Part shown: positions 10,862 to 14,605 of the stretch, one piece after another | Layout of the letters: every line of letters begins with the position of its first letter | Position numbering within the stretch: position 1 is the first letter of the stretch | Source of the DNA: a virus | Strand: one strand, 5' to 3' | IMG/VR virus record: IMGVR_UViG_3300044675_004034 | Span: 1-37,350 of that record | Length of the DNA stretch: 37,350 bases | The notes under the pieces: model-generated | What the model was told of the DNA's origin: nothing | The model's database searches: none | The model's input: only the letters and a program-made list of their open reading frames with translations | Made by a program: the position numbers and the translations under genes

Positions 10862-13564
10862 ATGAAAAAAATCGACTTCGACAACATCGCGGCACAACAT
10901 ACGCTTTCGGCAGTCGTTGGCCGGGCGGTTCAATTGCGGGCGAACGGCGCGGGGGAATTCGTCGGGCTTTGTCCGTTTCACAACGAACGAACGCCAAGCT
11001 TTACGGTGAGCGACCGAAAGGGTTTCTTCTACTGCCACGGGTGCGGCGAACATGGCGACGTGGTGGATTTTGTCGCCAAGACGAGCGGCGTTGCGATTGG
11101 CGAGGCCGTCAAGATTTTGACCGGCAACGAATACACGCCGACGCCGCGACCGGCAAACGCGCCCGCGTATGACGATTATGCGGGGATCGAGGCGGCGACG
11201 GTCCCCGATAGTCACGAGATGTTCGAACCGGGGCAGGATATTGAGGTGTTCAACCCGCGTCGTGACCGGGTTTGGAAGATGCGCCCGGTTATGGTGTTCC
11301 CCTATCGAGCGCTTGACGGGCGTTTATTGGGGTACGTTTTTCGCGTCGAGTTTGACGACGGCAAGAAGGTAACGCCAACGGTGCGTTTTGTCCGTTTGCC
11401 GGACGGGCGCGAGGTTTGGGCGACGGTTCCGTTTGAGAAGCCGCGCCCGTTGTATTGGGCGGACGCGCGCGGCGGTCAAGTCGTCGTCACAGAAGGCGAG
11501 AAAGCCGCCGACGCAGCCGCCCGGCTGCTTGGGAATATCGCCGTCGCGACGTGGCCGGGCGGGACGCAAGGCGTAAAATACGCCGACTGGTCCGTGCTGG
11601 CAGGCCGTAGCGTGGTGATCTGGCCCGACGCCGACGAGCCGGGCCGGGAAGCCGCGCGCGATATTGCAGACCGCTTGCTTGCGATTGGCGCGACGGTCAA
11701 GGTTGCCGAGCCGGAAGATAACCGCCCCGCCGGATGGGATGCCGCCGACGCTGAAGCCGAAGGATGGGACCGCGCCAAAACGCTTGGCTGGCTGAAAGTC
11801 CGTTGCGTCGTGATCGAGCCGACGCAACCGGAAACCGAACCGCCGCCGCACGAAGGATATAACGAAGGCCCGGCAGACGACGAGCCGGATATTGACGAAC
11901 CCTTGCCTCCGGCACCGCCTATTGACGAAGGAGAAAACGCGCCGTTTCGCGTGCTTGGGTACGACAGCGGGCACTATTTCTATCTGCCGCGCGCGACGCA
12001 ACAGGTTGCCGCCTTGCCTGCGCAATCGCATACTTGGAAAAACCTGATGCAGCTTGCGCCGTCGCATTGGTGGGAAGCAAACTTTCAGGCGATGAACAAG
12101 GCGGGCGAAATGGCCGCAACCGCCGCGCTCTTGGCGAAGGCTCACGCGGTCGGGCCGTTTTTCCCCGAGCGCTTGCACGGTCGCGGGGCTTGGCGGGACG
12201 GAGAACGGGTCATCTATCACTTGGGCGACAAGGCCCTGACGCCGGACGGGACGCGCCGCTTGTACGAGGTCGAAGGCGAAGCGATCTACCAAGCGACCCG
12301 GCCTATTCGCGGGCTAGACTTGGAAACGATGCCCGCCACGTCGCAAGAGTGCCAAGCCCTCGTCGGTATCTGCAAACGCCTGCCGTGGGCAAACCCGCTG
12401 TCAGGCGTCGCGCTAGCAGGCTGGATTGCGATTGCCCCGATCTGCGGCGCGTTGAAATGGCGTCCGCATATTTGGATCACGGGCGGCGCCGGGTCGGGCA
12501 AGTCAACGGTGATGATGGACGTAGTGATGAGGCTCTTGCAGTCGTTTGCCGTCCAGTTCGAGGGAAACACGAGCGAAGCCGGTATCCGGCAAAAGCTCGG
12601 CACCGACGCGCTGCCGATTGTGTTTGACGAAGCGGAAGCAGAAACGGAACGCGCGCAAGGCCGGATTGGCGCCATTGTTGACCTTGCCCGCTTGGCGTCG
12701 TCGGGTGCGCGCGTCGTCAAGGGGTCCAAGAGCGGGGAAGCCGTCGAGTTTACGGTTAGATCGGCGTTTTGTTTCAGCAGTATTGAACACTCGATCAAGC
12801 AGCACGCCGACGAAACCCGTATTAGCAAGCTGGCGCTGGTACGCCGGACGGACGCGCACGCCGACGAGGAATACAAGGCGATGATGTCCGACATTCGAAA
12901 CCTGTTCACGCCGAAATTTGCGTCGTCGTTGTTTTTGCGTATCTGGCACAACATCCCGACGGTGCTTGACAACATCGCCGTTTGTATCGACGCGGCGGCG
13001 CAAGAGTTGCGGGACCGGCGCGCGGCGGATCAGGTCGGCACGCTAATTGGCGGTTACGTTTCGCTGCACATGACGCGCCCGATTGAGTTTAAGGAAGCGG
13101 TTGAATTCGTCCGACGTTATGACTGGTCGGAACATACGGCCATCGCCAGCGCCGACGATAAGACGCGCCTGCTGGAACGCATCCTGACATTCTCCGTCGC
13201 CGTTACCACCGAGGCCGGAAAGAATATGCGCGTCACGATTGCCGACATGCTGCGCGCGGCGCGGTCGATGCACGGCGGGATCATCCCGCAAAGCGACGCT
13301 GTTCGGTTGCTCGGGCCGATGGGGATCAAGGTTGACGATGACGGCGCGATTATCTCGGCCACGTCGCAGCGCTTCAGCCGGGAAATCCTGCGCGGGTCGC
13401 AATGGGAGGCCGACTGGTCGCGGCCCTTGCGCGAATTGAAGGGCGCGCGAAAGGCGAACGTGACCTATTTTGCCGCCGGAGTTCGCGCGCGTGGCACGCT
13501 GATACCTTGGGAGACAATCGGCCTCGATGAAACGCTTGACGATATGGCCGGAGCATTGGTATAA
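10862..13564 (+). CDS. Fused primase-helicase (900 aa)
   Basis: This replication protein makes RNA primers and unwinds DNA. Residues 37-61 form a CHC2-type zinc finger (CPFH, then CHGC). A Toprim catalytic domain follows, with TEGEK at 210-214 and PDADE at 255-259. An acidic, Pro-rich linker covers about 320-360. The C-terminal half is an ATPase with Walker A GGAGSGKST (541-549) and Walker B IVFDEAE (D589, E590), resembling the DUF927-type helicase half of plasmid and phage primases. At 900 aa both activities are complete in one chain. AAGG stands before the ATG. The gene is closed by a terminator at 13614. Confidence 0.9.
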   Translation: MKKIDFDNIAAQHTLSAVVGRAVQLRANGAGEFVGLCPFHNERTPSFTVSDRKGFFYCHGCGEHGDVVDFVAKTSGVAIGEAVKILTGNEYTPTPRPANAPAYDDYAGIEAATVPDSHEMFEPGQDIEVFNPRRDRVWKMRPVMVFPYRALDGRLLGYVFRVEFDDGKKVTPTVRFVRLPDGREVWATVPFEKPRPLYWADARGGQVVVTEGEKAADAAARLLGNIAVATWPGGTQGVKYADWSVLAGRSVVIWPDADEPGREAARDIADRLLAIGATVKVAEPEDNRPAGWDAADAEAEGWDRAKTLGWLKVRCVVIEPTQPETEPPPHEGYNEGPADDEPDIDEPLPPAPPIDEGENAPFRVLGYDSGHYFYLPRATQQVAALPAQSHTWKNLMQLAPSHWWEANFQAMNKAGEMAATAALLAKAHAVGPFFPERLHGRGAWRDGERVIYHLGDKALTPDGTRRLYEVEGEAIYQATRPIRGLDLETMPATSQECQALVGICKRLPWANPLSGVALAGWIAIAPICGALKWRPHIWITGGAGSGKSTVMMDVVMRLLQSFAVQFEGNTSEAGIRQKLGTDALPIVFDEAEAETERAQGRIGAIVDLARLASSGARVVKGSKSGEAVEFTVRSAFCFSSIEHSIKQHADETRISKLALVRRTDAHADEEYKAMMSDIRNLFTPKFASSLFLRIWHNIPTVLDNIAVCIDAAAQELRDRRAADQVGTLIGGYVSLHMTRPIEFKEAVEFVRRYDWSEHTAIASADDKTRLLERILTFSVAVTTEAGKNMRVTIADMLRAARSMHGGIIPQSDAVRLLGPMGIKVDDDGAIISATSQRFSREILRGSQWEADWSRPLRELKGARKANVTYFAAGVRARGTLIPWETIGLDETLDDMAGALV

Positions 13565-13613
13565 ACGCAATGTCCCTTGGCGGGATTTCTTGGGTGTTTC
13601 CTCGCTAAACTTG

Positions 13614-13650
13614 CCCCGGCGCCGGTCCTCCTGGCGTCGGGGTTTTCTTT
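13614..13650 (+). terminator. Intrinsic terminator after primase-helicase
   Basis: CCCCGGCGCC (13614-13623) pairs with GGCGTCGGGG (13633-13642), ten pairs with one G-U, around a 9-base loop, followed directly by TTTTCTTT. It lies 50 bases after the primase stop and should end the first early operon. Confidence 0.9.
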
Positions 13651-13659
13651 AAGTAGAGA

Positions 13660-14030
13660 CACTGCTTCGGCGGTGAGCCTTGCCGTAGGGTCGGCGGTCG
13701 AAAGACCAATGATGTGCCGGAAACGGACATAGCAAGGCTCTCCGACGCAGCGGCGTGGATGGACACGCTAACGAATGGTCGTGCGGTTACGCGGGGCGCT
13801 GAACTCGGCGCTGTCTGGCACCAGTCTGGAGCAGAGACACAAACTATGCCCGCACGATTAGAGCAGCCGGTATCAAGCCCGGCCCGCGTCATTCTACCCC
13901 GGTCAGAATTCCCGATCCCGCAAAGGTCGGGTAAGTAGGCCGGTGCGCGGGGCGGCGGTGCAGGCACAAGCTTGCTAGACCAGCCGCAAGGCGAAAGCCG
14001 AGGTGTCAGGCCATAGCCGCCGCCCCGTTG
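13660..14030 (+). ncRNA. Candidate structured non-coding RNA (about 370 nt)
   Basis: No convincing gene lies between the terminator and the repressor, but the stretch is full of complementary arms. Helix A: 13675-13683 with 13732-13740 (9 bp), enclosing GGTC-GAAA-GACC (13696-13707) and a 7-bp hairpin with a bulged G and another GAAA loop (13712-13730). Helix B: 13776-13786 with 13850-13860 (11 pairs, two G-U). Smaller hairpins: 13753-13768, 13866-13883, 13891-13909 and 13911-13931. Helix C: 13948-13958 with 14017-14027 (11 bp), enclosing GGCGAAAGCC and a competing GCCGCAAGGC. GNRA loops appear only when read as plus-strand RNA, which suggests the direction. I match it to no known RNA family. 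A promoter was not identified. Confidence 0.6.
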
Positions 14031-14032
14031 CT

Positions 14033-14605
14033 TTATGGCCGTATCCAAAGGATCGGCGTTGCGGCGGATAGCTCGGCATTTTCAATCACCGTGCCCGGCC
14101 ATTGAAGATCAAAGCGCCCTGGGTCGACACCCGGCTCGATCCTGCGGACCAGCCAAGGCCCCGACGCGATGCGAACCGTTGCCAAGCGCCCGATAGCGGC
14201 GGCGTCAACGGCGGCGTTGGGCCGGAAGAATATCAGCGCCCCGGCCATCAAGTCCCGGCTGCGGGATCGGACGGCGACCGTCCCTTCTGGCGTCGCGGCG
14301 GGCGCGTCAACGTCCGACGCCGGGCCGTCAAGGTGAATTTCTCCCACCTCGTCAACCCAACCTGCGACCTTGACGCGGCGCCCGCCCTTTGAGGACACGG
14401 GCAGGCCCGCGTGCGCCAGCACCTCTTCGACGCCGACGCCAAGGAATTGCGCAATTATCGAGGCTTCCGGTAGCTGCATACGTCGTGTCCCTTGAAACAA
14501 AGCGGTTATCTGTGCGGGATCGACGCCGAGCATTTTAGCCAAGCCGCGCTGCGTTTTGCCTTGGTCGCGTATCAATCCTTGAAACCACCTAGCATCGATA
14601 GACAT
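14033..14605 (-). CDS. CI-like repressor (190 aa)
   Basis: Residues 8-40 form a lambda-repressor type helix-turn-helix (QGKTQRGLAKMLGVDPAQIT), followed by ASIIAQFLGVGVEEVLAHAG. The C-terminal part (about 95-190) has the outline of the S24/LexA-type dimerisation domain (TVAVRSRSRDLMAGALIFFR, and LATVRIASGPWLVRRIEPG) but the usual GDSMxP serine motif is missing, so self-cleavage looks unlikely. It would keep the rightward promoter at 14684 off in lysogens. The gene points left, away from the Cro-like gene. GGGG 10-13 bases before the ATG serves as Shine-Dalgarno. Confidence 0.8.
   Translation of the reverse strand: MSIDARWFQGLIRDQGKTQRGLAKMLGVDPAQITALFQGTRRMQLPEASIIAQFLGVGVEEVLAHAGLPVSSKGGRRVKVAGWVDEVGEIHLDGPASDVDAPAATPEGTVAVRSRSRDLMAGALIFFRPNAAVDAAAIGRLATVRIASGPWLVRRIEPGVDPGRFDLQWPGTVIENAELSAATPILWIRP

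Follow-up and report, generated by a model that had tools for sequence, protein, structure and literature searches.

The stretch analysed here, referred to as the window, is a viral record of 37,350 bases. Within it, a gap of about 470 bases with no recognisable protein separates the gene for a DnaG-type primase (10862-13564) from a minus-strand gene for a Cro/C1-type repressor (14033-14605). Four viral relatives (L002-L005) carry the same primase at about 60% identity, and in these a convergent repressor gene follows the primase stop directly, or after a short terminator hairpin. Because the relatives lack these bases, the gap represents an extra segment in the window phage; for the same reason they could not be used for covariation analysis. 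DNA similarity searches with the region returned no homologues in phages at E<=1e-5 and none in plasmids, and a search for homologues via the antisense ORF also found none.

The 5' end of the gap holds a candidate small RNA of the alpha-r8 type (Table 1). A promoter-like TTGACG-18-TATAAA arrangement overlaps the primase stop and directly precedes the candidate, which contains a UUUCCUC-type motif (GUUUCCUCGCUAAACUU, 13596-13612) followed by a terminator-like hairpin (13613-13643). The earlier note on this DNA had placed the terminator of the primase operon just upstream of its structured region: a terminator-like hairpin does end at 13643, but it probably belongs to this separate alpha-r8 (mmgR-like) sRNA rather than to the primase. 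In Caulobacter, the alpha-r8 sRNAs SisA-D associate with Hfq and regulate by base pairing; the related sRNA of Sinorhizobium is MmgR (PMC12559287). We also observed that the alpha-r8 core motif GTTTCCTCSCTARACTT has at least 120 matches in IMG/VR (L010-L129), with 10 of the first 14 loci passing the Rfam gathering score, which suggests that sRNAs of this type are common among viral contigs. We rejected a general association of the sRNA with the element described below, since among members of the family the two lie within 3 kb of each other in the window alone.

The earlier note had proposed that 13651-14032 is a structured RNA and, from an asymmetry in GNRA loops, that the plus strand is the RNA strand. 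Both proposals are supported by folding. The plus strand reaches -176.6 kcal/mol, compared with -155.6 +/- 5.65 for dinucleotide shuffles (z = -3.72, with 0 of 100 shuffles as good), while the minus strand gives z = -1.40. The absence of a convincing gene was likewise borne out, as no ORF in the region matches Pfam or PHROGs and no frame is open across homologues, and so was the absence of a known class: a scan of the whole window against Rfam 15 gave 0 matches at gathering score. The three long helices of that note, A, B and C, are all present in the predicted fold, but the conserved unit includes neither A nor C, and B belongs to its variable insert. Only 13744-13890 is conserved within 13651-14032, and the conserved parts, P1, P2 and P3, were absent from the earlier description. 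The RNA is thus not the ornate molecule of about 370 nt, of the GOLLD/ROOL type, that had been suggested, but a conserved unit of only about 50-60 nt that encloses an insert of 43-176 nt.

In the window, both flanks of the conserved unit are structured (Table 1), and the helix A domain and the 3' domain are candidate structures outside that unit. The suggestion that GCC-GCAA-GGC and GGC-GAAA-GCC act as a switch concerns the helix C domain, which is not conserved, and finds no comparative support. The 3' arm of that domain extends into GTTGCTTTATGGCCGTATCC, a sequence similar to the one that follows the hairpin of the convergent terminator in relative L004, and the arm aligns with the end of that hairpin. 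We considered whether the helix C domain (13947-14028) is a second copy of the element and rejected it: model R1, described below, gives it 17.1 bits (E 0.08), and it has no GAWGGA loop.

Table 1. Features between the primase and repressor genes, in window coordinates
Feature	Position	Strand	Basis
Promoter-like TTGACG-18 nt-TATAAA	13536..13565	+	By eye; a stricter tool rule omits it
Candidate alpha-r8 (suhB/mmgR-like) sRNA	13566..13657	+	RF00519, 29.5 bits, E 6.6e-4; below the gathering score of 41
Flanking helix A domain (candidate): 9-bp helix enclosing two hairpins	13675..13740	+	Predicted fold; z -2.9
Helix A	13675-13683 with 13732-13740		Predicted fold
Whole conserved element	13742..13892	+	Covariance model R1, 72.3 bits, E 8.4e-13
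P1 5' strand, acceptor-like, 7 positions, one A-C mismatch here	13744..13750	+	R1 alignment
2-nt linker CG (positions 8-9 by analogy with tRNA)	13751..13752	+	Alignment of members
Hairpin P2, D-arm-like, 5 bp, loop GAUGGA	13753..13768	+	Loop invariant, stem covaries
Variable insert ("rope"), 97 nt here, includes helix B	13769..13865	+	Length and sequence comparison
Helix B, within the variable insert	about 13776-13786 with 13850-13860		Predicted fold
Hairpin P3, T-arm-like, 5 bp, loop UAUCAAGC	13866..13883	+	Family consensus UNUCRANY
P1 3' strand	13884..13890	+	R1 alignment
Flanking 3' domain (candidate) with helix C (13949-13958 with 14017-14026)	13893..14032	+	Predicted fold; z -4.0

Homologues and anatomy of the conserved element

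The lead to homologues came from a permissive BLAST search with the region, which gave a weak match in two pieces (E about 2) between genes of Pseudanabaena phage Pan3. The Pan3 pieces, GCGGCGTGGATGGACACGC and AGCCGGTATCAAGYCCGGCCCGCG, have the same order as in the window and similar spacing. Scanned alone over IMG/VR, each piece gave at least 120 matches, and dozens of contigs found with one piece also carry the other, in a fixed polarity. A structural rule then yielded at least 139 viral members besides the window. A scan of one genome per species added 63 well-supported loci, defined as those with a P1 of at least 6 bp.

An alignment of seventy members (A1), unambiguous outside the insert, together with comparison of the wider family, establishes the order of parts: P1, a linker with an invariant C, the GAWGGA hairpin P2, a hypervariable insert, and the UNUCRANY hairpin P3 abutting the partner strand of P1. 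The linker C is found in 128 of 128 aligned members and is followed by G or A in nearly all; a linker of exactly 2 nt and a spacing of 0 nt between P3 and P1 hold in most members, and a single A precedes P3. Pairing in P1 stands at 95-100% over seven positions (95% at position 7) and then at 74, 59 and 49%, so that P1 is a stem of at least 7 bp that exceeds this length in most members. The P2 stem occurs as CGTG/CACG, CACG/CGTG, CGCT/AGCG, CTCG/CGAG and others around its constant loop. The ropes range from 43 to 176 nt and show neither a common sequence nor strong structure across members (mean z -0.41).

Several lines of evidence support the reality of this structure. A covariance model built from 70 other members, with the window excluded (R1), finds the window element at 72.3 bits, whereas it reaches at most 18.5 bits in 537 kb of other viral DNA. 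In the alignment, 96.8% of cells are paired, 18 of 19 pairs vary on both sides and P1, P2 and P3 all covary; the covariation score is 0.605, compared with 0.148 after shuffling and 0.068-0.106 after sliding. Because members were partly selected by pairing, we repeated the tests on loci fetched with no pairing requirement. Among the matches listed for the P3 sequence alone, 72 have an upstream GAWGGA loop, and in 63 of these all 5 of 5 stem pairs form, in stems of widely differing sequence; on the control side there is a single such loop, and it is unpaired. Conversely, among the matches listed for the P2 sequence alone, the six outer P1 positions are fully paired in 124 of 140 loci, a number that drops to 5 when the strands are slid by three.

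The P1 stems across members contain 30 G-U but only 4 A-C appositions. This excess points to an RNA read from this strand, as supporting evidence only, because the selection rule allowed G-U and not A-C. Protein coding was rejected: no reading frame is continuous across members, and the insert lengths are spread without codon phase (45/42/53 by length modulo 3 among the members listed). Homologues with codon-type conservation and no compensation had been named beforehand as the outcome that would speak against an RNA; the homologues are instead strongly compensatory. The comparative data leave us almost certain that the element is a conserved RNA family.

Distribution and gene neighbourhoods

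Genome members come from Alpha-, Beta- and Gammaproteobacteria, Acidobacteria, Planctomycetes, Verrucomicrobia, Bdellovibrionaceae and Humidesulfovibrio; pattern hits in Saccharothrix, Cytophagales and others lack the structure of the family and were set aside as chance. In evenly drawn genomes, with the larger draws scanned under stricter filters, the element occurred in 3 of 190 of the Sphingomonas class and 1 of 185 of the Comamonas class, each count including the seed genome, and in 0 of 99 and 0 of 98 for the classes of the Cytophagales and Saccharothrix genomes. This rarity fits a mobile, phage-borne RNA. Named phages with a copy include Caulobacter phage DMCA (strain CB15) and Komagataeibacter phages phiKX1 and phiKX2, and all 6 of 6 annotated phage records with a copy place it between genes.

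Its neighbours are diverse phage genes, among them those for exonuclease, terminase small subunit, primase, portal, integrase and endolysin. The earlier note had tied a possible role in immunity or superinfection to the adjoining repressor gene, but other copies adjoin terminase, exonuclease, portal, integrase or tRNA genes, and the position beside the repressor is incidental. Upstream and downstream genes are found in every orientation, and the downstream gene shares the strand of the element in 66 of 129 cases, which argues against a cis-acting leader or riboswitch. There is no enrichment of promoters or terminators around members, implying that many copies may belong to longer transcripts. 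Structure is stronger in the 3' flank of members than in sequence further away (mean z -1.22 versus -0.25). Taken together, the comparisons define 13744-13890, at the level of sequence, as a plus-strand, non-coding element borne by phages and prophages and not tied to one neighbouring gene.

There is, nevertheless, one recurrent kind of company. A tRNA gene lies within 1 kb of 17 of 139 viral members (among the matches listed) and 12 of 63 genome members, compared with 3 of 117 and 2 of 118 loci at random places, and the tRNAs near members are on the same strand in 54 cases and on the opposite strand in 1. By these counts the element is over-represented beside same-strand tRNA genes. tRNA-like sequence also occurs inside the insert itself. 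The ropes of Pan3 (L130) and L416 match the Rfam tRNA model at 34.9 and 30.9 bits, both above its gathering score; the other Rfam matches in member loci, to tRNA, tmRNA and Burkholderiales-2, lie outside the element. Nested tRNA-like sequences were seen at L130 2561-2626, in the inserts of L217 and L460, and at L416 2290-2363. In Pan3, L217 and L460 the anticodon arm looks degenerate, while the insert of L416, an Erythrobacter contig, holds an apparently complete tRNA-Arg.

Further features were noted in individual contigs. Phage permuted tmRNAs are present in L213 (3426-3728, tag ANDEVYDNRLAA), L254 (1565-1912, tag ANDNVYAAAA) and L135 (625-1007, tag ANDNAPVTALRLAA); in L135 the tmRNA has the element as its spacer, between its 3'-CCA and 5'-GGGG ends. 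The contigs L303 (5272-5579), L451 (6359-6666) and L160 have two copies each, about 200 nt apart in L303 and L451. A common string around GAATGCGCAGGCTGATGCGC lies downstream of the element in L150, L300, L335 and L401 and upstream of it in L232, and is perhaps another conserved RNA or site. One viral contig with the element also carries a Burkholderiales-2 RNA (RF02917, 93.5 bits; L158 1542-1615, minus strand).

A proposed tRNA-like chassis and its alternatives

The outline of the element recalls tRNA (RF00005). As in tRNA, an acceptor-like stem is followed by a 2-nt linker and a D-arm-like hairpin with GG in its loop, and a T-arm-like hairpin, with a UCRA core in its loop, abuts the 3' strand of the acceptor. 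The tRNA elbow is formed by G18, G19, U55, C56, R57 and A58; invariant residues of the element, GG in the P2 loop and UC, a purine and A in the P3 loop, would correspond to these. The differences are equally clear: the element has a variable insert of 43-176 nt and no conserved anticodon arm, the D-like loop is 6 nt, the T-like loop is 8 nt instead of 7, the residue preceding UC in the P3 loop is usually A rather than U, and the chassis itself gives no Rfam tRNA match. An encoded 3' CCA was found in 4 members, where 3.1 are expected; as CCA is not encoded, charging is not implied.

This analogy makes it probable that the element is tRNA-like in three dimensions. P1 and P3 would stack like the acceptor and T arms, giving 12 bp, and the P2 loop would dock through its GG on the UC in the loop of P3, the contact that forms the elbow in tRNA. 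Because the loop residues are invariant, this contact is beyond the reach of covariation and is only predicted. The reading that we favour, at a probability of roughly 0.45, is that the fold is a chassis handled by the host tRNA machinery. The element would be transcribed inside longer phage transcripts, pass for a tRNA with host factors such as RNase P, T-arm modifying enzymes and nucleases, and so be trimmed and protected as a tRNA-like body. The stable chassis would then show, in place of the anticodon arm, a phage-specific cargo loop, sometimes a tRNA-like domain, whose target may vary among phages. That the insert is cargo is a guess, made from ropes that are weakly structured and have no common sequence. 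The broadest version, in which phages of hosts from many phyla use one host-processed tRNA-elbow chassis to present lineage-specific cargo, including whole tRNA-like domains, to host targets, is more speculative, and we put it forward tentatively.

The same resemblance can be explained in other ways. The fold might serve to process or insulate clusters of phage RNA genes: RNase P and tRNA 3' nucleases would cut it and so separate neighbouring RNAs, such as tRNAs, tmRNA pieces and sRNAs, with the element itself a by-product. The enrichment beside same-strand tRNAs would suit this role, as would the copy in the spacer of a permuted tmRNA, a spacer that must be removed, the position in the window after an sRNA candidate, and an enrichment of U at -1 and A at 73. 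We nevertheless consider it rather unlikely: about 85-90% of viral members (among the matches listed) lack a tRNA within 1 kb, P1 often extends beyond 7-8 bp and so offers no fixed cut site, and the U(-1)/A(73) bias comes partly from an eighth base pair. Somewhat less likely still is a decoy or sponge, by which mimics of the tRNA elbow would flood the cell to counter a host defence that targets tRNA, or a tRNA-binding factor. Phages have been proposed to deploy tRNAs against tRNA-cleaving defences (PMC10264068), and a tRNA-like topology that lacks an anticodon, is restricted to phages and keeps company with phage tRNAs would be in keeping with that proposal; yet the described defences cut the anticodon loop, which the element lacks, and a pure decoy could do without an insert that is hypervariable and reaches 176 nt.

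Two further possibilities have little in their favour, to much the same degree. In one, the element would be a structural RNA that forms RNA-only particles, with the insert as linker, as its GOLLD- and ROOL-like habits (phages, tRNA islands, tRNAs in the linker; PMC12286853) and the tandem copies might suggest; conserved intermolecular loops are not evident, however, and neither the size of the core nor the Rfam search links it to those RNAs. In the other, the invariant linker C, the GAWGGA loop, the A before P3 and the UNUCRANY loop would form the catalytic core of a self-cleaving ribozyme to which the insert is peripheral. P3 does resemble the twister P4 hairpin CCGGUCCCAAGCCCGG, but the Twister-P5 model (RF02684) reaches only 16.1 bits, on member L241, far under its gathering score of 37.6; no counterpart of the rest of the twister core was seen, and there are no matches to other ribozyme families. 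Least likely of all is a feature of the DNA, such as an attachment site, cruciform or packaging signal. The inverted repeats, set between genes that point either way, and the proximity of some copies to integrase or terminase genes could be read in this manner, but the loops are strand-specific, P1 tolerates G-U far more than A-C, no neighbour is constant and the tRNA bias is to the same strand.

The combination of a tRNA-like outline with an interchangeable insert yields direct hypotheses, namely that the element acts as a substrate of RNase P, as an elbow mimic, as a scaffold for cargo or as a decoy, and the copies in sequenced phages of named hosts, DMCA, phiKX1 and phiKX2, make the question open to bench work.

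Comparison with known RNAs

In the window and 22 member-bearing or related loci, the element matched no Rfam 15 family at gathering score. No description of the family was found in the open-access papers searched, a set without the 2017 survey of 224 motifs. Judged by its sequence and pairing, the element appears to be a new, previously unclassified RNA family, although a prior description outside those papers is possible. An abundant phage RNA family with textbook covariation has thus had no counterpart at gathering score in Rfam 15.

The nearest candidates were compared individually. The skipping-rope RNA (RF02924) is a phage RNA motif with some resemblance to the element in outline; 0 of 20 member records scored above its cut-off, 19 of 20 had no match at E<=10, and the only match (13.4 bits, against a gathering score of 36.7) lay elsewhere than the element. 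tRNA mimicry by viral RNA is not new as such, and the bacterial and phage Y RNAs, including YrlA, are RNAs that mimic tRNA. The YrlA model (RF02553) also scored above its cut-off in 0 of 20 records, its best match of 21.1 bits (gathering score 69) not being at the element. The permuted tmRNAs (RF04321, RF01849, RF01850) occur in some of the same phages and, in L135, flank the element. They have a tag reading frame and begin with the T-arm piece, whereas the element carries no tag frame and its pieces come in the reverse order, and no tmRNA was detected in the window by ARAGORN or cmscan.

A parallel in habit exists with GOLLD and ROOL, whose covariance models matched neither the window nor the member loci scanned. 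These are phage RNAs found near tRNA islands, sometimes with tRNAs in the linker (PMC12286853). The element, too, is borne by phages and prophages, lies near tRNA islands and sometimes has a tRNA in its variable linker, but its core of about 60 nt, compared with more than 500 nt, is about ten times smaller. All three RNAs cluster with phage tRNAs, the role of which is itself debated.
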